Of a stretch of DNA of 64,000 bases, positions 4,053-58,890 are shown piece by piece. Under the pieces are notes generated by a model that was not told the DNA's origin, did not search any database, and saw only the letters and a list, made by a program, of their open reading frames with translations. The translations under genes were made by a program, and so were the position numbers. The DNA is from Fimbriimonadaceae bacterium (lineage in GTDB: Bacteria; Armatimonadota; Fimbriimonadia; Fimbriimonadales; Fimbriimonadaceae): contig JAHBTD010000003.1 of NCBI GenBank assembly GCA_019638775.1, positions 124,001 to 188,000 on the forward strand. The letters are read 5' to 3'. The first letter of the stretch is position 1, and every line of letters starts with the position of its first letter.

Positions 4053-4538
4053 CTATGACCTGCACGACGCTGCGGCCCAGAGAAGCAGAACAAGAGGAAC
4101 GACGAAGGCCAAGATGATAAAAGTACTAATTCTCTCGCGCTCCTCCTTGTCAATCATCTCGTCAATGTATTCGCGTCGTCTGCGATCACTTAAGCTGAGT
4201 TTCTTAGTTGAGGCAGTTGTTTGTGGAGGTTGCTTTGACATGCTCTCGACTTTCTGTTCCACGCGATGTGTCCGGGCCTGCAAATTTTCAATTTTTTGAT
4301 CTCGTGGGCCAAGTGCTTTTTCGATCTTTTCATCTAAGTTCTCGTTTCGGATTGCCCGCAGCATCTTCGAAACAGTAAGCGCATCCGCTCCAGTCGCTTC
4401 AACCACAGCGCCGATGGTTGGATTAGGTTCGCCGAACTCCTGCTCGCCGAGGCGTTTGAGCAGGATTCGAAGCTCCTCCTGTGACATCTCCTCGGCGAGA
4501 AGCGCCAGATATTCGGGGCTGGATTGTTGCTCAATCAT
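4053..4538 (-). CDS. Unrecognised small protein: HTH-like core, coiled coil, C-terminal membrane segment (copy 1)
   Basis: 161 residues from ATG 4538, last of three tandem paralogues on this strand. I do not recognise the family. The block [20 protein letters not shown] (residues 16-35) and [20 protein letters not shown] (40-59) are almost identical in all three copies. The second block resembles a LacI-type helix-turn-helix in spacing and residues, which is only a resemblance. Residues 68-101 are heptad-like and charged (coiled coil). Residues 138-158 (STFIILAFVVPLVLLLWAAA) form one membrane segment at the very end, so the rest should face the cytoplasm. The start lies 7 bases past the end of the decayed middle copy, suggesting cotranscription. 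The upstream ATG at 4706 is rejected because paralogue alignment begins at 4538. Confidence 0.65.
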   Translation of the reverse strand: MIEQQSSPEYLALLAEEMSQEELRILLKRLGEQEFGEPNPTIGAVVEATGADALTVSKMLRAIRNENLDEKIEKALGPRDQKIENLQARTHRVEQKVESMSKQPPQTTASTKKLSLSDRRRREYIDEMIDKEERERISTFIILAFVVPLVLLLWAAASCRS

Positions 4539-4545
4539 CGCGTCA

Positions 4546-5253
4546 TCACTTACCGGATTGTTGCCCGCGAACCATCTGCATAAGTAATCCGGAACATAGA
4601 GAGCGTTCAGCCTCGTTCCGAGGCGGGCTCTTCTTGCCATCTTTTGAGATGTAATACATACCTCCAGCGCTATCGACCTGAAGCTTGCCGCCATCATCCG
4701 TTTCAATTGAGGAGATGGTTAACTTAGGAGAGGGCATTTGGTAGCTGGGATTGCATTGACTTGCGAGTAGGCCAAAAGTGATGAGCAGAAAGATTCCCGC
4801 GAATACGATCGAGAATGGCTCATATCTTTTTCTTTGTTTTTCGCGATCAATGTATGTAGTCAGTATCTCCCGCGACTCCGGGTCTTACAATATCGTTTCT
4901 GCACCAGGTTCCAGCGATGGTCCATTTTGCGTAGATTTGTCTAAGTGCCCCTCGATGCTTTCAGTGCGTACCTCGAGTCCTCCTGTGCGTGCTTCCAACT
5001 GCTCGATTTTCTTATCACGCGGTCGAAAAGCTCTATCTACCTTCGCATCGAGAGATTCTGAGCGAATTGCCCGCAGGATTTTCGAAACCGTGAGTGCATC
5101 CGCTCCAGTCGCTTTAACCACAGCGCCGATGGTTGGGTTGGGGTCACCGAACTCCTGCTCGCCGAGGCGTTTGAGCAGGATTCGAAGCTCCTCCTGTGAC
5201 ATCTCCTCGGAGAGAAGCGCCAGATAGTCGGGGTTAAGATTCTGCTCTATCGC
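4546..5253 (-). pseudogene. Decayed middle paralogue of the tandem family (copy 2): no start codon and an in-frame TAA
   Basis: Matches its neighbours over the whole length but carries two lesions. The codon aligned with the start ATG of copy 1 is GCG (5251-5253), and no ATG, GTG or TTG occurs between there and Met at 5202. An in-frame TAA at 4885-4887 then cuts the linker between coiled coil and membrane segment. After that stop the same frame stays open for 112 codons, encoding a recognisable membrane segment (PFSIVFAGIFLLITFGLL) and an extra tail of about 60 residues after it that the other copies lack. Either the gene is dead, or a 105-residue soluble fragment is still made from ATG 5202. 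The frame's apparent start overlaps the stop of copy 3. Confidence 0.65.
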
Positions 5254-5765
5254 TACCTGCTGTTAAGCAAACTGAATCCAAAGATCATGGACACGAGAAG
5301 CACAAGAAGGATGACATGAGGCAAGACCTCATACTTAACGATGTCTTGCATGTCACTGGCGCGTTTATTCTCCACTTCCCACTGGCTGAAACTTGCAGGC
5401 TCATACACTTGTGCGATGATAGGTGGCGCACTGATATACGATCTATCCCCAACAACTTGCTTAAGGGAACCGACATCCGTTTCGAGAGTTTTTGTTCGCG
5501 CCTCAAGTTGGTCTACTCGCCTATCTCTTTGCTCAAATGCACGCCTGATCTTCTCTTCGAGTTGATCATTTCGGACTCCTTGCAGCATTTTCGAAACGGT
5601 AAGTGCATCTGCGCCCGTTGCTTCCATAACTGCACCGATGGTCGGGTTGGGATCGCCGAACTCCTGTTCACCGAGGCGTTTGAGCAAAACGCGTAGCTCT
5701 TCTTGCGACATCTCTTCTGCAAGAAGAGCTCCATATTCTGGGTTCGTTTCGTTCTCGTGGTTCAC
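5253..5765 (-). CDS. Unrecognised small protein: HTH-like core, coiled coil, C-terminal membrane segment (copy 3)
   Basis: First of the three tandem paralogues. GTG at 5765 ([15 protein letters not shown]) is chosen because the alignment with copy 1 begins there; an ATG at 5804 in the same frame would add 13 residues. The shared blocks [20 protein letters not shown] and [20 protein letters not shown] are followed by a charged coiled-coil stretch, a linker richer in Pro, Ser and Tyr than in copy 1, and a terminal membrane segment ([18 protein letters not shown]). It diverges from aconitase, with about 160 bases between the starts. The function is unknown. Its close similarity to copy 1 in the core but not in the linker suggests the core is the conserved working part. 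Confidence 0.65.
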
Positions 5766-5924
5766 GCTTCCCCGTCCGACAATCAGTACGAGCCGAACGC
5801 GCATTTGGTTACGCTCAATTCGGCCTTAGAGAAGTATCCCTCGCAAAGGTACAATCTAACCAATAGCGCCTCTTCGATGAGTGCAGTTTTTCGCTCGGCG
5901 GAGGGGTCTCGGAGCCCCTTACGT

Positions 5925-8648
5925 ATGAACAGTTTTAACGCCAAAGCCAACTGGACCGTCGACGGCCAAACTTACACCATTTTTCGACTCGCTGCCGTAG
6001 CGGACCGAGGCCACAACTTGAGGCGGCTCCCGTTCTCCCTAAGGGTGCTTTTGGAGAATCTGCTCCGAAACCAAGAGACCGGCACGGTGGCAGACGAAGA
6101 TATCGAGGCGTTGGCGACTTGGGACCCCAAAGCAGACCCCAGCAAGGAGATCGCTTTTACGCCAGCCCGAACGCTCCTCCAAGACTTCACCGGTGTCCCT
6201 TGCGTTGTCGATCTTGCCGCTATGCGCGATGCGATGGCGGAGCTCGGCGGCGATCCTCAAAAAATCAACCCGCTGAACCCCGTTGAGCTGGTCATTGATC
6301 ACAGCGTTCAGGTCGATCAATACGGCACTGAAGCGGCGATTTTGATCAACCGCGACCTTGAGTTTGAGCGCAATGAGGAGCGCTACAAGTTTTTGAAGTG
6401 GGGTCAGAACGCCCTGCACAACTTTAAGGCCGTGCCCCCGAACACCGGCATCGTCCACCAGGTGAATATCGAATATCTCGCCCGAGTGGTGATGACCGAC
6501 GGCACGCCAGGATACGCCTATCCCGATACATTGGTGGGGACCGACTCGCACACCACAATGGTCAACGGTTTGGGCGTGCTGGGCTGGGGCGTCGGCGGCA
6601 TTGAGGCAGAGGCCGCGATGCTTGGCCAGCCGGTGAGCATGCTCATCCCGCACGTCATCGGATTTAAGTTAACGGGCACACTTCGGGAAGGAACAACTGC
6701 GACGGACCTCGTCCTTGTAGTCACCGAAATGCTCCGCAATAAGGGCGTTGTCGGCAAGTTCGTCGAGTTCTTTGGCGCGGGCCTCACTGGGCTCCCGGTG
6801 GCGGACCGCGCGACCATCGCGAACATGGCTCCCGAATACGGCGCAACGATGGGCTTCTTCCCGGTCGACGAAGAGACGATCAAGTATCTGCGCATGACCG
6901 GCCGTCCGGAAGAGCATGTAAAAATGGTCGAGGCGTACTGCAAAGAGCAGGGGCTCTGGCACAATACAGCCGATGGCGAGCCGGAGTACACGGATGTCCT
7001 CAGCCTAGATCTCGGCACGGTCGTGCCAAGCGTTGCCGGACCCAAGCGCCCGCAAGATCGTCTTGCCTTGCAGGATGCCGGACCGGCTTTTAAGAAGACA
7101 TTCGAGCCAGTTATGGCGGGACGCAGCACGAAGATGCCGTTGCCAATGGCTGGCGCTGCAACCGCAGTCTTGGAAAAGCCTGAAGACGAAGCCAATGCCG
7201 TTGCTGGCGATCTGCGTGATGGAGCGGTCGTCATTGCCGCGATCACAAGTTGTACGAATACGTCAAACCCGTCGGTGATGGTCGCCGCCGGGCTGCTGGC
7301 GAAGAAAGCGGTCGAAAAAGGTCTTGATGTGAAGCCTTGGGTCAAGACGAGTTTGGCCCCCGGTTCGCGAGTTGTCACCAACTACCTGACCGATTCTGGC
7401 CTCCTGCCGTATCTTGAGAAGCTAAATTTCTTTACCGTTGGCTATGGCTGCACGACCTGTATCGGGAACTCCGGTCCGCTGCCTGAAGAGATCAGCAAGG
7501 CGATCAACGAGAAAAACCTTGTTGCGGTCTCAGTCCTAAGTGGCAACCGTAACTTCGAAGGCCGCGTCCATGCCGACGTCAAGGCGAACTACCTGATGTC
7601 GCCTCCTCTTGTCGTCGCTTATGCGCTTGTTGGAACCATCGACATTGACCTCACCCAAGATTCGCTCGGCAAAGACAAGGACGGCAACGACGTGTTCCTA
7701 CGCGACATTTGGCCTTCGCAGCACGAGATTGCCGAAACAATCCACAAGTGCGGCATGACCGACATGTTCCGCAAGAACTACGCAGACGTTTTTAAGGGCG
7801 ACGAGAAGTGGAATGCACTTGATGCGGGCTCTTCTGACCGCTACGGTTGGGACCCGAAATCCACCTACATTAAGCGCGCGCCTTACTTTGATGGGATGCC
7901 AAAAACGGCTCCTGATGTGGTTGCCGACCTGAATGCGATGAAGGTTTTGGCGATTTTGGGCGACTCGATCACCACCGATCACATCTCTCCGGCTGGCAGC
8001 ATCAAGGGCTCTTCGCCGGCTGGGTTGTATCTGGAAGAGCACGGCATTGAAAAGAGGCTGTTCAACAGCTACGGTTCGAGACGCGGCAATCATGAGGTGA
8101 TGGTGAGGGGCACCTTTGCCAACATCCGATTAAAGAATCAGCTCGCTCCCGGAACGGAAGGCGAATGGACGACTTATCTGCCCACCGGTGAAGTGATGTC
8201 GATCTTCGACGCCTCAGAGAAGTATCAAGAGGACGGGGTTGGACTGATCGTTCTTGCCGGAAAAGAGTACGGAACAGGCTCAAGCCGGGACTGGGCGGCA
8301 AAGGGGCCGTATCTGCTCGGCATCAAATGCGTCATCGCTGAGAGTTTTGAGCGGATTCACCGCTCGAATCTGGTGGGGATGGGGATTCTCCCACTCCAGT
8401 TCGAGGCTGGCGACAGCATCGCTTCGCTCGGACTCACCGGGCAAGAGGAGTTCTCTGTGCTTGGATTGAGCGATGGTATTGCCCACCACTTCCACGAAAG
8501 CAAGTTACTTGATGTGCGGGCCACAGACGAGAGAGGAATGGTCAAGACGTTCCGAGCCTTGGCGCGAATTGACACTCCCCAGGAATGCCAGTACTACCGG
8601 CACGGCGGAATTCTGCAATACGTTCTGCGGCAGTTGTTGAAGGACTGA
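5925..8648 (+). CDS. acnA: Aconitate hydratase A
   Basis: 907 residues, the normal length for the AcnA/IRP-type aconitase that interconverts citrate and isocitrate in the TCA cycle. The [4Fe-4S] ligands are present: Cys443 in [11 protein letters not shown], and Cys509 and Cys512 in [14 protein letters not shown]. The active-site motif DSHTTM is at 207 and the C-terminal swivel domain carries [11 protein letters not shown]. The frame extends upstream to 5703, but the N-terminus chosen ([10 protein letters not shown]) has GGAG at 5911-5914, about 10 bases before ATG 5925, while the upstream ATG at 5877 has no ribosome site. No leader regulatory structure was seen. The stop is followed within three bases by a repeat with terminal inverted repeats. 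Confidence 0.97.
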
Positions 8649-8651
8649 AGC

Positions 8652-8885
8652 TGTAAAGGTTGTAAGGGGTAAGGATTGTAAGGCGCAGGAGTCGTCCGAG
8701 TTTCCGTCTACTATTCTTAATACTGCTCCCGTTGACTCGTCTTGCCGCAGACTGTAGGCGTGTCCGGCGGTGGTAGGAACACGACTGTCAAGTCAGGTCG
8801 GGAGCCTGAACACGCTCACGTTTTGATGTTCCCGTACAATAACGGCAAGAGGGCCTTACAACCCTTATTCCTTACAATCTTTACA
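8652..8885. repeat. Intergenic element with 32-base terminal inverted repeats (TTGTAAGG type, copy A)
   Basis: The left end 8652-8683 and the reverse complement of 8854-8885 match at about 28 of 32 positions. Each arm is itself built from imperfect copies of TTGTAAGG. The 170-base core encodes nothing I can support. It fills the gap between the convergent aconitase and riboflavin synthase genes, leaving 3 and 7 bases. A second element with the same arms but an unrelated core lies at 48967-49122. It may be a MITE-like element or a bidirectional terminator. No transposase is nearby. Confidence 0.7.
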
Positions 8886-8892
8886 TCCAACA

Positions 8893-9483
8893 TCACCCGG
8901 AATGATGCACGCCGATCAGCCTTTCGACGTGCTTGGCGATCACGTCGAACTCAAAGTTCACCTTATCGCCAGGCTGACGGACGGACAAATTCGTGTGTTC
9001 ATAGGTGATGGGGATGACCCATACATCGAACGCACCGGCAAATGGACGCACTACTGTCAAGGAGATACCATCTATGGTGATGGACCCCTTATCCACAAGG
9101 TACTTTCCGTAGCCTTGCGGGGCTTCAAACCGGAACACGTGCGATTCACCCTCGTCGTGCATGCTCAGAAGTTCGCCGATGGTATCGACATGGCCAAGAA
9201 CGATGTGCCCGCCAAAGCGGTCCGTGGGGCGCATTGCACGTTCGACGTTGACCCTATCGCCTGCTTGGATGCTGTGAAGGGTGGTCCGAGCAAGTGTCTC
9301 TTCGCTGAGGTGGAAGTTGAGCCCCTGGTCGAAGTCTGCGAGCGTTAGGCAGCAGCCGTTGACCGAGATGCTCTCCCCCAGCCTGTAAGGGTCGTCCCAG
9401 ACATCGTTAGGGACGTCTATAAGGAGCTTTGGGGCATCAATTTCGCGAATGACCCCGACGGTTTGGATGATTCCTGTAAACAT
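8893..9483 (-). CDS. ribE: Riboflavin synthase alpha chain
   Basis: 196 residues, made of the two repeated lumazine-binding barrels typical of the family. It begins with the hallmark MFTGIIQTVG and carries the second-barrel sequence HIVLGHVDTIGELL. It joins two 6,7-dimethyl-8-ribityllumazine molecules to give riboflavin and 5-amino-6-ribitylaminouracil in the cytoplasm. A purine-rich stretch (GGGAGGGCAGGAG) precedes the ATG. The gene stands alone, with no other rib gene in the window, and its leader shows no FMN riboswitch consensus. Confidence 0.95.
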   Translation of the reverse strand: MFTGIIQTVGVIREIDAPKLLIDVPNDVWDDPYRLGESISVNGCCLTLADFDQGLNFHLSEETLARTTLHSIQAGDRVNVERAMRPTDRFGGHIVLGHVDTIGELLSMHDEGESHVFRFEAPQGYGKYLVDKGSITIDGISLTVVRPFAGAFDVWVIPITYEHTNLSVRQPGDKVNFEFDVIAKHVERLIGVHHSG

Positions 9484-9683
9484 AGCTCCTGCCCTCCCAC
9501 TCAGTACATACGGACCTACGTCCCAAAAGAACCGGGTTTGGCTAATTCCTTGGGGCTCGATGTCGATGAAACCTGTTTCGCAGACGTACGCAATATTGGG
9601 TTTTCAGCCGATTAAGTCCCAACCCAATTGAACCCGGAAACTGCAACTGCCAAAATAGCCTTGGAGCAGTTAAGGTCCATACC

Positions 9684-10904
9684 TTGAAGAGCTACTACGA
9701 ACTCCTGAGCGTCGAGCGCAACGCCGACGTCGAAACCGTTCACCGAGCCTATCGCAAGCTCGCTCGGAAGTACCACCCGGATGTGAATCCGGATCCGAAG
9801 AGCCACGAAACGATGTCTCGGATCAACGAGGCATTCAAGGCCTTGAGCGATCCTCAACGCCGGATGGAATACGACGCAATGCTCAACGCGGGTCTTGCCG
9901 ACTCTCCAGCGCCCAAGCAAGAAAAACCTCGTGTGCCTCTTATCGTCCGGCTCCATCAGCGCTTAAGAGCACATAAAACTCCCGTCTATTCTCTCGCATT
10001 CGTTCCCGATACCGGGGAGCTCATCAGCGGGTCATTCGACAACGAAGTGTTCTGGTGGAATCCAGTCAATGGCGCTACGACGAGACGACTCAAAGTGGAA
10101 TCGGGCGCGATCTCGGCATTGAGGGCCGTCTCCGCCGCGAACGTTATCGCCGCGGGCACCAGCGAGAACTCCATCTCGGTTTGCCGAATCAACACGAAAG
10201 GGGCGGGTTCGTGGAAGAACACTCTTTCGGAGTGGGGCGCTTGCGTCGCCATATCGCCGGATGGCAAGCGAATAGCCACCGGTACGGTCTACCACGCGTT
10301 GATCGTCACGGACGCGATTCGCGGAGATGTCCTCTTTGAGCGCAAAGACCACAACGGGTCCATTTCTGCCGTTGCATGGTCGGCGGATGGCAGGTTTATC
10401 GCGACGGGGTCTAGTGACAATTCGGTGCGCCTTCGCAACGCCGACGACGGCAAGGTGCTGCACACGTTTTCAGCGATACGAACTACGGTTACGGCGCTTG
10501 CATTCAGCCCAGACAATCACTACCTCGTTGTCGCATCTGCTGATCTTTCGCTCCGTGTATTCAGTCTTTCTGACGGCTCGCTTGAGCGAGTACTGTTCGG
10601 GCATACGAAGCCGATTGAGTCGATCTCGTTCCACCCGAACGGCTGGCTTTTTGCCACGGGAGCAAGGGATGGTTCTGTAGGGCTGTGGAACGCTTCGGAC
10701 GGCCTTGGGCAGCTCAAGCTTGAGGCATCTTCCCGACCCATCCTAAGCGTGGCATTCAGCAGTGACGGCAATATGTTGGCGGCTGGTGGATTGGACAAGA
10801 ATGTGCGACTGTGGACCCTAATGGTTAACGAGGAAGCCCTCGGCAAGGACCCACGCACGAAGAAGAAGCCTGCTTCCCGAGAGAAATACGCTGCCGCAGT
10901 CTAA
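9684..10904 (+). CDS. J-domain/WD40 beta-propeller fusion protein
   Basis: 406 residues from TTG 9684, with AAGG nine bases upstream. Residues 1-65 are a DnaJ J-domain with the HPD motif at 31-33 (ARKYHPDVNPD), needed to stimulate DnaK ATPase. After a short linker, residues about 90-385 hold about seven WD40 repeats, for example VAWSADGRFIATGSSDNSVR and ISFHPNGWLFATGARDGSVG. The Gly/Phe region, zinc fingers and client-binding domains of a true DnaJ are missing, so this is not the housekeeping co-chaperone. It more likely recruits Hsp70 to a partner bound by the propeller. No signal peptide is seen, so cytoplasmic. It is convergent with the pst operon. Confidence 0.85.
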   Translation: MKSYYELLSVERNADVETVHRAYRKLARKYHPDVNPDPKSHETMSRINEAFKALSDPQRRMEYDAMLNAGLADSPAPKQEKPRVPLIVRLHQRLRAHKTPVYSLAFVPDTGELISGSFDNEVFWWNPVNGATTRRLKVESGAISALRAVSAANVIAAGTSENSISVCRINTKGAGSWKNTLSEWGACVAISPDGKRIATGTVYHALIVTDAIRGDVLFERKDHNGSISAVAWSADGRFIATGSSDNSVRLRNADDGKVLHTFSAIRTTVTALAFSPDNHYLVVASADLSLRVFSLSDGSLERVLFGHTKPIESISFHPNGWLFATGARDGSVGLWNASDGLGQLKLEASSRPILSVAFSSDGNMLAAGGLDKNVRLWTLMVNEEALGKDPRTKKKPASREKYAAAV

Positions 10905-10916
10905 TCGCACACTTTC

Positions 10917-10960
10917 AGATTGTAGATTGTAGATTGTGATTGCGGATTGAAGATTGAAGA
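10917..10960. repeat. Short tandem repeat GATTGTA / GATTGAA
   Basis: Imperfect head-to-tail copies of AGATTGTA, AGATTGTA, GATTGCG, GATTGAA, GATTGAA, starting 13 bases after the J-WD40 stop and ending 12 bases before the pstA stop. The units are too short and too variable for CRISPR. It resembles the other degenerate repeats found behind stop codons in this window. Confidence 0.6.
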
Positions 10961-10971
10961 GAGCTACCCTA

Positions 10972-11841
10972 CTACACTGCTTTGCGCTGGGTTCGCGATC
11001 TTAAGAAGATCGCCAGCGCATTGGTCAGCAGCAAAGCCCCCATCAGAACGATAATCCCCCCAGCAGCAACCTGGGCGAACTCTTTTTCTGGCCGTGATGT
11101 CCAGTTAAAGATTTGAATAGGGAGTACGGTGAACTGATCGCTCACCTTTGTTGGCGCATAGTTTATAAACGTCACCGCGCCGATGGTGATCAACGGAGCT
11201 GTCTCACCCATGGCGCGCGAGATCGCGAGAATGATCCCAGTAAGAATGCCAGGGAAAGCGCTTGGCAGAACCTGCCTGCTGATGGTCTGCCAGTGAGTGC
11301 CACCCAAAGCGTACGAACCCTCGCGGAACGACTTAGGAACGGCTTTCAGGGCCTCCTGGGAGACGATGATGATCATCGGCAGAATCAAAAGCGCCATCGT
11401 TAGCGCTCCAGATAGGACGCTGCGGTCGAAGGCCAGCCAACGTACGAAGACGGCAAGACCAAGCAGTCCGTAAACGATGGAGGGTACGCCTGCCAAGTTA
11501 GAAATGGTGATCTGGATGAACTCGGTGAATCGGGTTTTACGGTGAGTGAACTCCTCAAGGAAGATCGCAGCAGCGATCCCAATCGGAACCGCGATAACTA
11601 TCGTTAAGAGGATCACCCAAATCGTTCCCCACAGCCCCACCATAATTCCTGCTCTTGACGCTCGGCTTGAGGGTGGATTGGAGAAGAAAGCCGGGGAGAG
11701 TTTGGCATAGCCATCTACTCCGACTTTGTAGAGCAAAGCCATCAACAAGAGGAAGGCGATAAGGATCGCCCCAAAGCAAAGCGCACCAAAGATGCGGGCT
11801 TTGAGCTTGCGTGCGGGCAGATTCCCCGTTGAAACGATCAT
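10972..11841 (-). CDS. pstA: Phosphate ABC transporter permease PstA
   Basis: 289 residues with six hydrophobic segments and the BPD-transporter EAA loop around [20 protein letters not shown]. With PstC it forms the inner-membrane channel for high-affinity phosphate import. The start codon overlaps the pstC stop by four bases (translational coupling). It is the last gene of the operon: downstream lies a convergent unrelated gene, so the ATPase PstB and the regulator PhoU must be encoded elsewhere. Confidence 0.95.
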
Positions 11842-53905: not shown

Positions 53906-53950
53906 GCCCCGGCTCGTCGGCTTTCTTATTGACTTGCCGGGGCATTTTTG
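53906..53950 (+). terminator. Terminator of ahcY
   Basis: GCCCCGGC (53906-53913) pairs with GCCGGGGC (53936-53943), a perfect 8-base stem with a 22-base loop, followed by ATTTTTG (53944-53950). It lies 13 bases after the ahcY stop and overlaps the 3' end of the convergent E1-like gene. Confidence 0.7.
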
Positions 53951-54672
53951 TGTGCCCCGCATGCAGGGCACTCCGGGCGGCGGCGGACGTCCACATTGCG
54001 ACTGATGCCGCTTTTCAGGTCTAAGAGCATCAGTCTGCTCGCAAGTGGGGTTTCGACCCCGAGCAGAACCTTAATCGCCTCGGATGCCTGAATCGTTCCG
54101 ATCGTTCCCACGAGCGGTCCAAGGACGCCGACTTCAGCGCAGGAGCCGCAGATCGTTCGATCCGTCCACACACAGTCGTAGCATGCGGCCCCAGGCATAT
54201 AAGTCTGAACAAATCCTGTCCATCCCACGGCACCGCCGAAGACGGCGGGCTTGCTCCGCGATATGGCGGCAAGATTGATGATGCGTCGAGCCCCCAGCGA
54301 GTCCGTGCCGTCGATTACAACGTCGCAGCTCTCAAGCAGCATTTCGGCGTTCCCTCTAGTGAGTCGATCCGGGATCGGCTCGATCTGTACGTCGGGATTC
54401 ATAGCCGCTAGCCTCTGCTGGGCTGCAACAACCTTCATGATGCCCATGTCGGAGGGGCCATAAAGCACCTGTCTGCCAAGATCAGGCTCACTGACCGAGT
54501 CGTCATCAAGCAGGGCAATCTTGCCGATCCCGGCTGCGCAAAGGTAAAGCGCGGCTGGACAGCCTAAGCCTCCGGCACCTACGATCAGAACGCTCGATCC
54601 TTGCAGCCGCGCGATGCCGCTCTCCCCGATTTCTGGCAGCTGCGAAAACCTCTGATAACGCCCCGGCTCCAC
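53926..54672 (-). CDS. ThiF/MoeB-type E1-like adenylyltransferase
   Basis: 248 residues from GTG 54672; a TTG at 54723 in the same frame would add 17 residues. The E1 Rossmann motif is VLIVGAGGLGCPAA, the ATP-binding acidic and Arg residues follow in LLDDDSVSEPDLGRQVL, and DVVIDGTDSLGARR is the conserved Asp. Zinc ligands CYDCVW and CPACG are as in MoeB, with CGSCAEVGVLGPLVGTIGTI beside them. There is no rhodanese domain. E1-like enzymes adenylate the C-terminal Gly of a ubiquitin-like protein. It diverges from a gene whose product ends in Gly-Gly, a likely substrate. Molybdopterin or thiamine synthesis genes are not nearby. Housekeeping MoeB remains the alternative. Confidence 0.88.
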   Translation of the reverse strand: MEPGRYQRFSQLPEIGESGIARLQGSSVLIVGAGGLGCPAALYLCAAGIGKIALLDDDSVSEPDLGRQVLYGPSDMGIMKVVAAQQRLAAMNPDVQIEPIPDRLTRGNAEMLLESCDVVIDGTDSLGARRIINLAAISRSKPAVFGGAVGWTGFVQTYMPGAACYDCVWTDRTICGSCAEVGVLGPLVGTIGTIQASEAIKVLLGVETPLASRLMLLDLKSGISRNVDVRRRPECPACGAHKNAPASQ

Positions 54673-54722
54673 AGAGGAAAGTATGGCGTAGAATAAGCGA
54701 ACCCGAACTCGCGAGAAAAACA

Positions 54723-55115
54723 ATGGTTCAAGTACTGATGGTCGATGAATCCACTGCCGGAGGGCGCATACAGGGGCTGACCTTGCAGATTGCCTCCCAC
54801 GAGATATCCATTAGAGATCTGATCGCACTTCGGGTACGGACGGAGATAGAGAATTACAACCGGGAGAGACCTGCCAGGTTTTACGGCCTGATCCAGCCGA
54901 CCGACGTCGAGACATTTCTGAACGGACCGAAGGAGAGAGCATACAAGCCCATCAATGCGGACAGACAGGTTCAAATCGCGCTGGATGCGTTTGAGAAACA
55001 GAGGTTTTTGGTGCTGCTGCCTGGGGGGCAGGCCCAATCGCTAGATGAGGTCGTCACGCTGCGCGATAACGACGAAGTGTCCTTCCTGCGGCTGGTTCCG
55101 CTGATCGGCGGGTAA
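54723..55115 (+). CDS. Ubiquitin-like beta-grasp protein with C-terminal Gly-Gly
   Basis: 130 residues ending DNDEVSFLRLVPLIGG followed directly by the stop. The end matches the beta-grasp C-terminus of ThiS, MoaD and ubiquitin-like modifiers, which are adenylated on the last Gly. The N-terminal half (GLTLQIASHEISIRDLIALR) fits strand, turn and helix of the fold; the middle (residues 45-95) is longer than in ThiS or MoaD (65-85 residues in total). The start diverges from the E1-like gene, and the DUF4132 gene begins three bases after the stop, so these two are cotranscribed. I infer a Ubl activated by the neighbouring E1. Whether it is a modifier or a sulfur carrier cannot be told. Confidence 0.65.
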   Translation: MVQVLMVDESTAGGRIQGLTLQIASHEISIRDLIALRVRTEIENYNRERPARFYGLIQPTDVETFLNGPKERAYKPINADRQVQIALDAFEKQRFLVLLPGGQAQSLDEVVTLRDNDEVSFLRLVPLIGG

Positions 55116-55118
55116 AGG

Positions 55119-57596
55119 ATGAGGCTGCCATTCCTTTCTAAAGCCCTGAAGGGGCAGACGGTCGATCTTTCCAAAAGCGACTATCAGGAAGAGCATCGCA
55201 TGCTGGCCTTGTATCTTGAGCAGAGCGATGCCTGGCGAAAGCAGGATGGGACCCACTTTATCTGGGGCTACGATCCATCAAGTGTGGAGGCGTCTGTGCC
55301 GATCCTCAAACGCACGAAGGAAGCTGGAGGCCGCATGATGACGGCGATCGGGGAGCGACTGGCGAATATCACGCCGATAAGCCAGCACGATTTTTTTGTT
55401 ACGCAGGGCGATCTGCCATTCCTATACTCGCTCGCGACGATGCTCTCCTGCAGACAGCCGGAGTTCACCCCGCAGCAGATTCAGCACCTCCTGATGCTTT
55501 CGATGCGCAGCCAGGCTTGTTCATGGACATTCGGCAAGGATAGCCTGACGTCGATGATCGTTGGCGCGGCCAAGCGGCAGGGGCTGACGCCCGAGATAAA
55601 AAAGGCTATCGATGCGATAATCGAAGCTTATGAAGAGGAGACCCGGCGCACACATCTCAGCAAGGAAGATCAGCGCAGTCTAGCTCGGCTCAGAGCGGTG
55701 CGCGAAAGCCAGGACCCCAACGCTCACCCACTCAACGAACCTTGGCAGGCTCCCCTGGCAACTGAAGAGACACGCTTGCTCGAGTTCATTCGCCATTGCG
55801 CGACTGCAAGCGGGAAGACGCCTTCCGAAAAGTGGAAGAAGGTTGCTGCTGGAATATTGGCGCGCTTCGAAACGAATGACCTGCTTGCTCTGTTCGAGCA
55901 GTCTCTCGCAGGCGTGCGCAAGATGGAGGTTCCCGTCGACGCGGCGCACAGCAGCATGCTGCGCGGATACTGCTGGATGATCGGGCTGATCAAAAGTCCG
56001 CGAGCCGCCTTTCTGCTTGGCGAGATGTTGCTTGCGTGCAACCATAAGCTCACAGGCTTCGGAGCCCGCTCGCAGAAGGGCTTCAGCGCCTGCGTGATCG
56101 CTTTGGAGCAGATGGGGGAAGTCTATGCCTTGGCTGAGCTTTCCAAGGCACGGGCTAAGGTCAAGACGCCGAGCCTGGCGGACCACCTGCTGAGCACACT
56201 GAACCACGCCGCAGCACAGCAGAATATCTCCCTGGAAGAGCTTGAAGAGATCATTCTTCCGACCTTTGAACTGGATGTTCCGGGCATAAAGAATCTTGGG
56301 TTTGGAGATTCGCAGGCAACTCTGGAGATCGTCGGCACCTCCGAGGTTGAGCTTCGATGGACAAAGGCAGGCAAGCCGGTGAAATCGGCTCCCGCACACG
56401 TGAAGGCCGAGTTCAAGCAAGAGCTTGCTGAGCTGACGAGGACAAAGAAGGAGATCGAATCGGCGCTTTCTGCTCAAAAGGCTCGACTTGAATCGCTCTT
56501 CATGATCGACCGGTCATGGCCCTATCCGCTCTGGCGAGAGAGGCATATCGATCATCCTCTCATGGCGAACATGACGCGGAGGCTGGTGTGGCGATTCCTC
56601 ACAGCGAAGGGTGAAGTGTTGGGTATCGCGACCGACGGCGTTCCCCTCGATATCGAGGACAAGCCGATTGAAGGCCTTGACGAAAACGCCGAAGTTCGTC
56701 TTTGGCATCCGCTCGACGCTGGGGTTTCCGCGGTCGAGGCATGGCGGGAGTACATCGTCGACCACGAGATCCGGCAGCCGTTTAAGCAGGCCCACAGGGA
56801 GGTTTATATCCTTACGGACGCCGAGCGAACGACCGGCATCTACTCAAACCGATTTGCCGCGCACGTGCTCAAGCAGCATCAATGCGCCGCGCTGATGCGC
56901 GCCCGAGGATGGAGATATCAGCTGCAGGGCTGGTTCGACTCGCAGTCGATACCGACGCTGGCTCTGCGCCAGCATGGATTGCGGGCTGAATACTTCGTCG
57001 AAGTCTCCGAAAACGACCCGGCGATGATGACGTCGGAGTCTGGCATCGCCACCTACGTCATCTCGGACCAGCTGCGGTTTCTCGATCTGGAAAACAACGC
57101 GGTCAGGCTTGATGAGATTCCGGCGAAAGTCTTTTCCGAAGTCTTGCGCGATGTCGACCTCTTTGTCGGCGTTTGCAGCGTCGGAAACGACGCGAGCTGG
57201 TTTGACCAAGGCGAGAGAATGGGCTTTGGCGCATACTGGCAATCATTCTCTTTTGGGGACCTGTCGGCTACGGCAGAGACCCGAAAGGCGATTCTGGGAA
57301 GGCTCCTTCCTCGACTGTCCCTCGCCAATGTTGCGCATATCGATGGCAGGTTCTTGGTTGTAAGGGGCAAGCGACGCACCTACAAGATTCATCTAGGCAG
57401 TTCGAACATTCTCATGGAGCCGAACGATCAGTATCTGTGTATCGTGTCGGCGCCGGACAAGGAACTGAAGACAGAGACGATCTATCTGCCTTTTGAGGGA
57501 GATCGGACGATGGCGGTTATTCTGAGCAAGGCTTTGATGCTTGCTGACGACGACAAGATCAAAGATCCGACGATCCTTAGCCAGCTTGAACGCTGA
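55119..57596 (+). CDS. DUF4132 domain protein, partner of the ubiquitin-like protein
   Basis: 825 residues. The N-terminal 450 are helical with repeat-like segments (LTSMIVGAAKRQGLTPEIKK, RGYCWMIGLIKSPRAAFLLG), then a coiled-coil-like stretch (ELTRTKKEIESALSAQKARL). The C-terminal half is DUF4132: ALMRARGWRYQLQGWFDS, DVDLFVGVCSVGNDASWFDQ, and the typical ending ADDDKIKDPTILSQ. The domain occurs in E. coli YehI and MolR; its activity is unknown. It has no signal peptide. It follows the Ubl gene after three bases (TAA AGG ATG), so translation is coupled and a stable complex or substrate relation is likely. Family length varies from about 800 to 1200 residues. Confidence 0.85.
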   Translation: MRLPFLSKALKGQTVDLSKSDYQEEHRMLALYLEQSDAWRKQDGTHFIWGYDPSSVEASVPILKRTKEAGGRMMTAIGERLANITPISQHDFFVTQGDLPFLYSLATMLSCRQPEFTPQQIQHLLMLSMRSQACSWTFGKDSLTSMIVGAAKRQGLTPEIKKAIDAIIEAYEEETRRTHLSKEDQRSLARLRAVRESQDPNAHPLNEPWQAPLATEETRLLEFIRHCATASGKTPSEKWKKVAAGILARFETNDLLALFEQSLAGVRKMEVPVDAAHSSMLRGYCWMIGLIKSPRAAFLLGEMLLACNHKLTGFGARSQKGFSACVIALEQMGEVYALAELSKARAKVKTPSLADHLLSTLNHAAAQQNISLEELEEIILPTFELDVPGIKNLGFGDSQATLEIVGTSEVELRWTKAGKPVKSAPAHVKAEFKQELAELTRTKKEIESALSAQKARLESLFMIDRSWPYPLWRERHIDHPLMANMTRRLVWRFLTAKGEVLGIATDGVPLDIEDKPIEGLDENAEVRLWHPLDAGVSAVEAWREYIVDHEIRQPFKQAHREVYILTDAERTTGIYSNRFAAHVLKQHQCAALMRARGWRYQLQGWFDSQSIPTLALRQHGLRAEYFVEVSENDPAMMTSESGIATYVISDQLRFLDLENNAVRLDEIPAKVFSEVLRDVDLFVGVCSVGNDASWFDQGERMGFGAYWQSFSFGDLSATAETRKAILGRLLPRLSLANVAHIDGRFLVVRGKRRTYKIHLGSSNILMEPNDQYLCIVSAPDKELKTETIYLPFEGDRTMAVILSKALMLADDDKIKDPTILSQLER

Positions 57597-57673
57597 CACA
57601 GCGCATTATCCACCCGTTAAGCAAGGTCTCTCTTTTCCTTCTCTTAACAATCAGGCTTCAGAATCCTGCGGTC

Positions 57674-57691
57674 GGGCCGGATATCCGGCCC
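57674..57691. repeat. Perfect 18-base palindrome GGGCCGGATATCCGGCCC
   Basis: Perfect palindrome in the 160-base gap between the DUF4132 gene and the PEP-CTERM gene, followed by CTTTCAGCCCGC. It may end DUF4132 transcription or be a REP-like unit. No T run of the usual length follows. Confidence 0.5.
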
Positions 57692-57756
57692 TTTCAGCCC
57701 GCTTGAGCTTCGGGACACCGTGCAGGGCGTGGCTTGATCTTGCAGGAAAAAGGAAG

Positions 57757-58890
57757 ATGGATAGCACCCGCGCACGCAGCTTTGCCGCTCTCGTCACTCT
57801 CACCGTCATCAGCACGACCGCTTTTGGACAGTCGGTCCGCATCGCCACCTGGAACGTCAGCAACTATTCCGGGGGGCGAGTGTCCGATATACAGAACGCG
57901 GTCTACGGCACTTTCCAGGGCCGGAGCTTCCGCCCCGATGCGATCTTGGGCGAAGAGTTTGCCAGCGTCTCCGCCGCCAACGCCTTCGTGACGGCGCTGA
58001 ATACGGCAGCCGGATCGCCGGGAGACTGGGCAGCGTCATCGGACACGGTTTTTTCGCTGTCAGGAATCAACGGCTCCAATGACAGCGTGTTCTTCTACCG
58101 CACCTCCAAGTTCAATCTGCTGAGCGCACCGATCAACGTCAGCCCCTCAGGAACCGTAGGCTCCGGCTCCAACCAGGCACCGCGTCACGCTTACCGCTGG
58201 GACCTTAAGATTCTCGGCAATGCAAACTCCAGCGAAGTTCTGGCCCTTTACGGCAACCACATGAAGGCGGGCTCAAGCTCGGCAGACCAGGCTCGAAGGC
58301 AGCCGACCGCTGATGCGATCCGCAACGATGCCAACGCGCTGCCCAGCAACTATCAGTTCCTCTACGGCGGAGACACGAACACGCAAAGCTCAAACCAGGC
58401 TCCCTATCAGACGATGGTCGGCTCTTCGGCCAACAACCGGGGACGGTTCGTCGATCCGATCCGAACGCCGGGTTCTTGGAACGGCAACTCTTCCTTCCGG
58501 TTTGTGCATACGCAAGACCCGACAGGGTCGGGCGGCATGGACGACCGGCACGATCAGATTCTGGTCGGCGGCGGGCTGGTCGATGGCGTGGGAACCGACT
58601 ATGTCGGCAACGCGAACATCGCCTATTCCACCTCTACATGGAACGACCCGAACCACTCCTACCGCGCTTGGGGCAACGACGGCACCAGCTTCAATACCAC
58701 GCTGACGGTCACCGGAAACACGATGGTCGGCGATTCGATCGCCCAGTCGCTCAAGAACACAGCTACCGGAAGCGGAGGCCACTTGCCGGTCTTCCTCGAC
58801 ATCGCCTACACTCCGGTGCCCGAGCCCGCCACGCTTGCAGTTCTGGGTGTGGGCGCGCTTGCCCTGATGCGGCGAAAGCGACGAAGCTAG
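57757..58890 (+). CDS. PEP-CTERM endonuclease/exonuclease/phosphatase-fold hydrolase
   Basis: 377 residues from ATG 57757, with AAGGAAG just upstream. A signal peptide (FAALVTLTVISTTAFGQS) leads into the EEP fold: Asn in IATWNVSNYS, Glu in AILGEEFAS, His in YGNHMKAGSS, Asp/Asn in YGGDTNTQSS, Asp in DDRHDQILV and the final His in GSGGHLPVFLDI. All expected active-site residues are present. The C-terminus is a PEP-CTERM signal: VPEPATLAVLGVGALALMRR with a basic end, so it should be cut and anchored by an exosortase, none of which is in the window. The substrate may be extracellular DNA or a phosphoester. Confidence 0.88.
   Translation: MDSTRARSFAALVTLTVISTTAFGQSVRIATWNVSNYSGGRVSDIQNAVYGTFQGRSFRPDAILGEEFASVSAANAFVTALNTAAGSPGDWAASSDTVFSLSGINGSNDSVFFYRTSKFNLLSAPINVSPSGTVGSGSNQAPRHAYRWDLKILGNANSSEVLALYGNHMKAGSSSADQARRQPTADAIRNDANALPSNYQFLYGGDTNTQSSNQAPYQTMVGSSANNRGRFVDPIRTPGSWNGNSSFRFVHTQDPTGSGGMDDRHDQILVGGGLVDGVGTDYVGNANIAYSTSTWNDPNHSYRAWGNDGTSFNTTLTVTGNTMVGDSIAQSLKNTATGSGGHLPVFLDIAYTPVPEPATLAVLGVGALALMRRKRRS

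Follow-up and report, generated by a model that had tools for sequence, protein, structure and literature searches.

The window, a stretch of 64,000 nucleotides from an Armatimonadota genome (Fimbriimonadaceae bacterium, contig JAHBTD010000003.1), carries neighbouring genes for an E1-like (activating) enzyme, a ubiquitin-like protein (Ubl) and a DUF4132 protein (Table 1). The observation of these three genes in a preliminary description of the window was confirmed, and its interpretation as a candidate conjugation or sulfur-transfer system was supported. The E1-like gene, with a GAGGLG motif and zinc-type cysteine pairs, diverges from the gene of the 130-residue Ubl, which ends in LRLVPLIGG followed by a TAA stop codon, and the DUF4132 gene starts three bases past that stop. 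As also described before, no E2 (conjugating enzyme), JAB deubiquitinase, thiamine or molybdopterin gene was found among the locus neighbours with Pfam or in the list of open reading frames, the search for E2 and JAB genes being confined to the locus. The only ThiS/MoaD-family match (PF02597) in the genome was on a different contig, near a MoeB-type E1. In addition, an all-against-all comparison of neighbours showed no third conserved partner beyond the Ubl and DUF4132, and no sulfur-mobilising or cofactor gene was conserved at the locus.

Table 1. Genes, domains and key codons of the E1-Ubl-DUF4132 locus, in window positions (aa, amino acids).
Feature	Position	Strand	Remarks
E1-like (ThiF/MoeB superfamily) enzyme	53926..54723	-	265 aa as read; PF00899 E 1.3e-66
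Ubiquitin-like beta-grasp protein (predicted fold)	54723..55115	+	130 aa, ends Leu-Ile-Gly-Gly-stop
Codons of C-terminal Gly129-Gly130	55107..55112	+	Invariant in 51 aligned homologues and in 88/88 short-form pairs
DUF4132 protein	55119..57596	+	825 aa; Pfam matches, structure model and invariant residues
DUF4132 domain, residues 418-598	56370..56912	+	Pfam
DUF7737 domain, residues 719-823	57273..57587	+	Pfam; predicted helix, beta strands, Cys774, two helices
Cys774 codon (YLCIV motif), predicted Ubl acceptor cysteine	57438..57440	+	111/111 short-form proteins; Gly-Gly state matched in 125/125 pairs

When 84,980 species genomes were scanned with a DUF4132 alignment, at least 569 relatives were obtained, and the best 80 were taken for the pair counts. 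A Ubl gene adjoined the DUF4132 gene in 73 of the 80 loci and the tail was exactly Gly-Gly in every case (73/73). Since DUF4132 alone was the query, the Ubl tails were unselected, and the occurrence of a Gly-Gly tail beside DUF4132 exceeds chance. The best 80 of the at least 569 relatives came from Armatimonadota, Chloroflexota, Actinomycetota, Planctomycetota, Cyanobacteria, Melainabacteria, Bacteroidota, Pseudomonadota, Myxococcota, Nitrospirota, Verrucomicrobiota, Calditrichota, Deinococcota and Acidobacteriota. The survey of adjacency that the preliminary description had suggested showed that the Ubl-DUF4132 pairing is conserved in at least 13 phyla. Three of the seven loci with no adjacent Ubl were located at a contig edge, as judged from the match positions (L117, L148 and L169), three had the Ubl elsewhere in the genome (L111, L116 and L149) and the last, L171, belonged to genome G010, which carries two Ubls. 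Pairs with a short-form DUF4132, as in the window, were on the same strand in 88/88 cases and had a Gly-Gly tail in 88/88. Within the phylum of the window, DUF4132 homologues were found in 38 of 291 genomes and the Ubl in 24, of which the weakest match (G275) is probably spurious. Overall, the conserved core is the Ubl with DUF4132; the earlier view of E1, Ubl and DUF4132 as one unit held for these two genes and not for the E1, which was linked in only five of roughly 125 pairs. Variant arrangements were also seen: an intact Ubl ending in VGG upstream of a DUF4132 gene cut to about its last 39 residues (L064 8679-9071, genome G080), and DUF4132 copies in tandem after a single Ubl gene (L120 4287-9917 and L068).

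In a sister clade, the DUF4132 partners of the Ubl are long forms of about 1,600-1,760 aa. The tails of their Ubls are AGG or VGG in some lineages and AGA, AGL, RSS, GSYW, GAYW, GTYW or GRLW in others. Alignment of the DUF4132 C-termini showed that Cys774 was retained with Gly-Gly tails and that the position held Ser, Asn, Ala, Leu, Phe or Val with the other tails. Among 125 pairs, with two Chloroflexota tails (GGA and GGSA) included in the Gly-Gly class, 114 had both Gly-Gly and Cys, 11 had neither and none was discordant (Fisher p 5e-16); five pairs (L096, L097, L199, L221 and L235) had been joined by hand, the two genes lying on separate contigs or farther apart, or the Ubl frame being broken. 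The long forms alone gave 8 pairs with both and 11 with neither (Fisher p 1e-5). Across the aligned pairs, the Gly-Gly tail and Cys774 were thus shown to co-occur strictly. Variable C-termini in homologues had been named beforehand as a point that would speak against the proposed system; Gly-Gly was invariant in the clade of the window and variable in the long-form sister clade. The case is strengthened by this variation, since the loss of Gly-Gly there coincides with the loss of the cysteine.

The tree weighs more than the Fisher count because related sequences are not independent. In the DUF4132 tree, Gly-Gly and Cys were lost jointly in three separate clades, namely Bacteroidota, Armatimonadota family f30 and family f12; the chance of three coinciding branches of about 46 would be near 7e-5 if losses were even, which is a rough figure. 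As a control for specificity, 1,526 aligned long-form columns were compared, of which 308 were invariant in the Gly-Gly group and three split the two groups perfectly. Cys774 was the only one of these three that was also invariant in the short forms (111/111). The cysteine was absent from DUF4132 proteins of distant clades with no adjacent Ubl (L098, L099, L101, L102 and L207). The protein at L207 (4945-7743, on an Acetobacter plasmid), which lacks both, seems to be a derived protein within the short-form clade.

The joint losses also bear on a different explanation, in which the Ubl would serve DUF4132 as a subunit for regulation or folding, its Gly-Gly tail docked next to Cys774, and the E1 would be incidental or act on a different Ubl. 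Three long-form clades keep the pairing with Gly-Gly and Cys gone, so a non-covalent interaction must have a use of its own; a linked E1 is absent at most loci; and YukD and TmoB are known Ubls that are not shown to undergo conjugation (PMC1779556). A purely non-covalent partnership is nevertheless unlikely in our judgement, given that the short-form Gly-Gly is invariant, that the locus gained an E1 twice and that Cys774 is nearly the sole column that follows the tail.

The 825-aa DUF4132 protein matched PF13569 (DUF4132, 7e-52) and PF24879 (DUF7737, 2e-39) in Pfam. Its structure model, with a predicted local distance difference test (pLDDT) score of 84, consisted of N-terminal helical repeats (about residues 19-378) and an alpha/beta C-terminal half, and the fold-search matches were to helical repeats only (residues 20-375). 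The invariant polar residues of the C-terminal half were H530, Q553, Q557, R560, E561, E569, E674, R677, D680, H758, D795 and K804, while H530, Q553, K556, Q557, R560, E561, Y563, E569 and R578 were conserved in the long forms as well; so many invariant polar residues would fit an enzyme. The order of the predicted elements of DUF7737 around the cysteine, together with the tail LSxxLSKxxLLAxDxxIxDPTI, gives the domain an E2-like look, an idea to which the profile and sequence comparisons given below lent no support. DUF4132 had been proposed as a ligase, target or scaffold for the Ubl, and the conservation data point to a cysteine-bearing Ubl acceptor as more likely than a mere scaffold. Directly downstream of the DUF4132 gene, a PEP-CTERM protein with endonuclease/exonuclease-like sequence is encoded at 57541-58890 of the window; its listed start overlaps DUF4132 and was probably set too far upstream.

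The AlphaFold2 model of the Ubl was built from 51 aligned homologues and had a pLDDT of 80 and a predicted template modelling (pTM) score of 0.76, with a low-confidence insert at residues 60-71 and the element order of a beta-grasp. The best Foldseek matches in the PDB were mostly SUMO and ubiquitin (E 5e-3 and up, none <1e-3), together with a few staphylococcal superantigen-like proteins and one spliceosomal chain. Alignment with VIA-align gave Z 7-8 to U11 small nuclear ribonucleoprotein chains, MOCS2A (MoaD), NEDD8 and ubiquitin. The scores were middling and the match list was nearly all one fold. The 130-aa protein is therefore predicted to have a ubiquitin/MoaD-type beta-grasp fold, as the preliminary description had supposed. 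The Ubl had no Pfam match, PF02597 included, and an NCBIfam match to PRK06194 (E 5e-4, 19.5 bits against a cut-off of 308) was taken as chance. Five Chloroflexota genomes (L211-L215, around 8600-9450) showed a weakly similar Ubl-like frame ending in GFMRLYQR with no DUF4132 nearby, which is possibly another Ubl family.

The window E1 matched PF00899 along the entire model and had all the features of the ThiF/MoeB E1 superfamily (ThiF domain, GxGGxG ATP site, Arg finger and catalytic-type Cys). Its motifs included GAGGLG, the Cys pairs CYDC and CPAC (zinc cysteines C181/C184 and C252/C255), Arg-finger-type RYQR and GRQ residues and a SCAEVG cysteine, and Cys195 is the candidate catalytic residue. 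The best solved relative was E. coli ThiF, with MoeB also among the closest. The enzyme was below every MoeB/ThiF equivalog cut-off in NCBIfam, and the PADLOC E1-E2 models matched it over the ThiF part only. Since homology sets in near residue 20, GTG at 54672 is probably the start rather than TTG at 54723, which would put ~50 bp between the divergent genes.

A divergent E1 gene adjoining the Ubl gene was found in three Armatimonadota only (the window, G090 and G117). Two Bacteroidota loci had the order Ubl-DUF4132-E1 with gaps of a few bases: at L137 the E1 comes third in the operon (4357-5061, with DUF4132 ending at 4352), and at L197 the Ubl (7938-8327), DUF4132 (5368-7935) and E1 (4664-5365) are all on the minus strand. 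In the E1 tree, the linked enzymes of Armatimonadota formed one clade (98/98) and those of Bacteroidota a second (94/94), each separate from the MoeB enzymes of these phyla. The window E1 grouped with its two Ubl-linked counterparts from Armatimonadota and not with the MoeB of its own genome, so that the clustering with housekeeping MoeB raised beforehand as an objection was not found. The E1 was thus recruited into the locus at least twice. All linked E1s (233-283 aa) kept the ATP-site motifs and a catalytic-type cysteine, and the zinc cysteines were absent in the Bacteroidota pair. Where no E1 is linked, it must act from another locus of the genome; of the 48 genomes reached by the DUF4132 scan, 47 had a ThiF-family gene, and so did 12 of 14 control genomes. 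A full-length E1 was missing in four of 11 genomes examined with non-Gly-Gly tails (G030, G035, G215 and G536), a direction that is as expected and not decisive.

At 8888-11305, the operon at L197 is flanked by genes resembling a DUF1016 nuclease and a tyrosine recombinase, both read by eye, which suggests horizontal transfer. An origin of the system in phage or mobile defence was rejected: phage records gave 0 matches, no match in viral contigs was confirmed, matches on plasmids were few and PADLOC had no match for the Ubl or DUF4132, and the integrase-like gene beside this one locus was insufficient.

The same fold and enzyme family would also suit sulfur transfer, in which the E1 converts the C-terminus of the Ubl to a thiocarboxylate, in the manner of ThiS, MoaD and CysO, and the sulfur passes to DUF4132 for an unspecified product, with Cys774 participating as a persulfide or acyl-disulfide. 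The Ubl fold is as MoaD-like as it is ubiquitin-like, with MOCS2A among the matches, and its tail is MoaD-like; ThiF is closest to the linked E1 among solved structures, and a cysteine partner suits a sulfur relay. We regard sulfur transfer as unlikely, given that the linked E1s are too short for a rhodanese domain, two of them (from Bacteroidota) have no zinc cysteines and the locus is without a conserved sulfur-mobilising or cofactor gene. Membership of the E1 in the ThiF/MoeB superfamily could also mean that ThiS/MoaD and ThiF/MoeB genes of ordinary thiamine or molybdenum cofactor synthesis lie here beside an unrelated DUF4132 gene. This is contradicted by the Ubl, which fits no ThiS/MoaD Pfam model, by the equivalog cut-offs that the E1 failed, by the separate MoeB-type E1 and nearby ThiS/MoaD gene in the window genome, and by the DUF4132 partner in at least 13 phyla; its probability is negligible. 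A role in cofactor synthesis was rejected on the Pfam and cut-off results and on the lack of cofactor genes nearby. The housekeeping MoeB of the window genome (L091 8520-10061, G000 contig 1) resembled by eye a MoaE-MoeB-rhodanese fusion, with the ThiS/MoaD gene close to it.

A distant long-form pair is known in Deinococcus radiodurans, where DRA0165 (SEP068184) and DRA0166 are located at L208 853-6140 (plasmid record NZ_OV024759.1). As in the window, the Ubl ends in Gly-Gly (AGG) and the DUF4132 protein has the Cys; DRA0166 differs in about 800 additional N-terminal residues. Induction of DRA0166 by mitomycin C is IrrE-dependent and the operon carries a DdrO motif (PMC8533742), while DRA0165 was up after gamma rays and peroxide and its deletion raised survival of peroxide (PMC9650054). 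A radiation/desiccation response motif (RDRM) upstream of the pair was reported in one study (PMC8533742) and not in the other (PMC9650054). DRA0165 was noted for its structural similarity to MOCS2A and SAMP1 and was thought to be Deinococcus-specific (PMC9650054); the analysis here assigns it to a family covering at least 13 phyla, beyond Deinococcus. The published work on the pair gives a MoaD-like structure and conservation in Deinococcus only, with no Ubl-DUF4132 system. Since DNA damage and irradiation induce this distant pair, a role of the Ubl-DUF4132 pair in stress response is plausible by analogy.

Overall, the locus is probably a ubiquitin-like transfer system with the Ubl and DUF4132 as its core, to which we add E1 chemistry and a thioester by inference. 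The E1, either the dedicated enzyme as in the window or a MoeB/ThiF-type enzyme elsewhere in the genome, would adenylate Gly130 of the Ubl, and the activated Ubl would be handed to Cys774 as a thioester. DUF4132 would act as a combined E2/E3 with its helical repeats as a substrate arm, and the Ubl may then go to a protein acceptor or remain on DUF4132 as an activating modification. It is conceivable, and we put it forward tentatively, that DUF4132/DUF7737 represents a new kind of enzyme for Ubl conjugation, with no relation to E2, HECT or RING proteins, forming a thioester at Cys774 and modifying targets in at least 13 phyla, with long-form derivatives in some lineages that are secondarily regulated by the Ubl without covalent attachment.

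Several observations weigh against a transfer system of this kind. The joint loss of Gly-Gly and Cys could reflect the loss of a non-covalent pocket that binds the tail. E1 linkage is rare, and one genome with a Gly-Gly tail (G335) had no ThiF match at all. No deconjugase was linked to the locus, to which the search for deconjugases was confined. In D. radiodurans, DRA0165 with a C-terminal tag still pulled down many proteins (PMC9650054). The Ubls of two Chloroflexota loci end in GGSA (L218, 1314-1859) and GGA (L219, 8305-8835) and would need trimming, with the DUF4132 Cys kept; at L219 the extra residue arises from an ATGA that closes the Ubl gene. Finally, the Cys774 domain gave a probability of 0.8% in hhalign with one E2 sequence (yeast Ubc4), and had no match in PDB sequences (phmmer) or Pfam.

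DUF4132 proteins are widespread and, to our knowledge, have no established function. E. coli MolR and YehI are members of the family. Proteins of the MolR/YehI type, from E. coli and others, share the DUF4132 domain with the window protein and may differ from it, judging from the distant Armatimonadota DUF4132 proteins without a Ubl that were compared, which lack Cys774. The SAMP/UbaA system of archaea, Urm1/Uba4 and TtuB of Thermus are similar in having a MoaD-like Gly-Gly Ubl, one MoeB-type E1 that perhaps serves several Ubls and no E2 homologue, whereas here the Ubl is genetically tied to DUF4132 with a co-varying cysteine; we know of no DUF4132-like partner for any of the three. ThiS/ThiF-ThiG and MoaD/MoeB-MoaE also combine a beta-grasp carrier ending in Gly-Gly with a ThiF/MoeB enzyme and a dedicated partner, but here the carrier is longer and has an additional insert separating its two helices, DUF4132 takes the place of the partner and no cofactor genes are near. 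The Bil and E1-E2-JAB operons (Iyer et al. 2006, PMC1779556) and Cap2/Cap3 of the cyclic oligonucleotide-based antiphage signalling system (CBASS) likewise encode a bacterial Ubl and E1 together; unlike in Bil and the E1-E2-JAB operons, the E2 (UBC) and JAB genes are absent at the present locus. DUF4132 is not mentioned in the searched passages of that survey of prokaryotic Ubls (PMC1779556). A literature search on DUF4132, Ubl operons and MolR/YehI, with subscription journals and preprints largely outside its scope, found no description of the system, so that the earlier claim of novelty stands in this respect, although the distant DRA0165/DRA0166 pair was already known to be stress-induced.

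The connection of DUF4132 with a Ubl ending in Gly-Gly, with an E1 and with a single cysteine that co-varies exactly provides a specific and falsifiable mechanism, with a tractable model organism. If the transfer reading is true, the three clades that lost the activation chemistry and retained the pair would be natural experiments, and bacteria, including Streptomyces, planctomycetes and cyanobacteria, would gain a Ubl transfer system that apparently operates without a recognisable E2.

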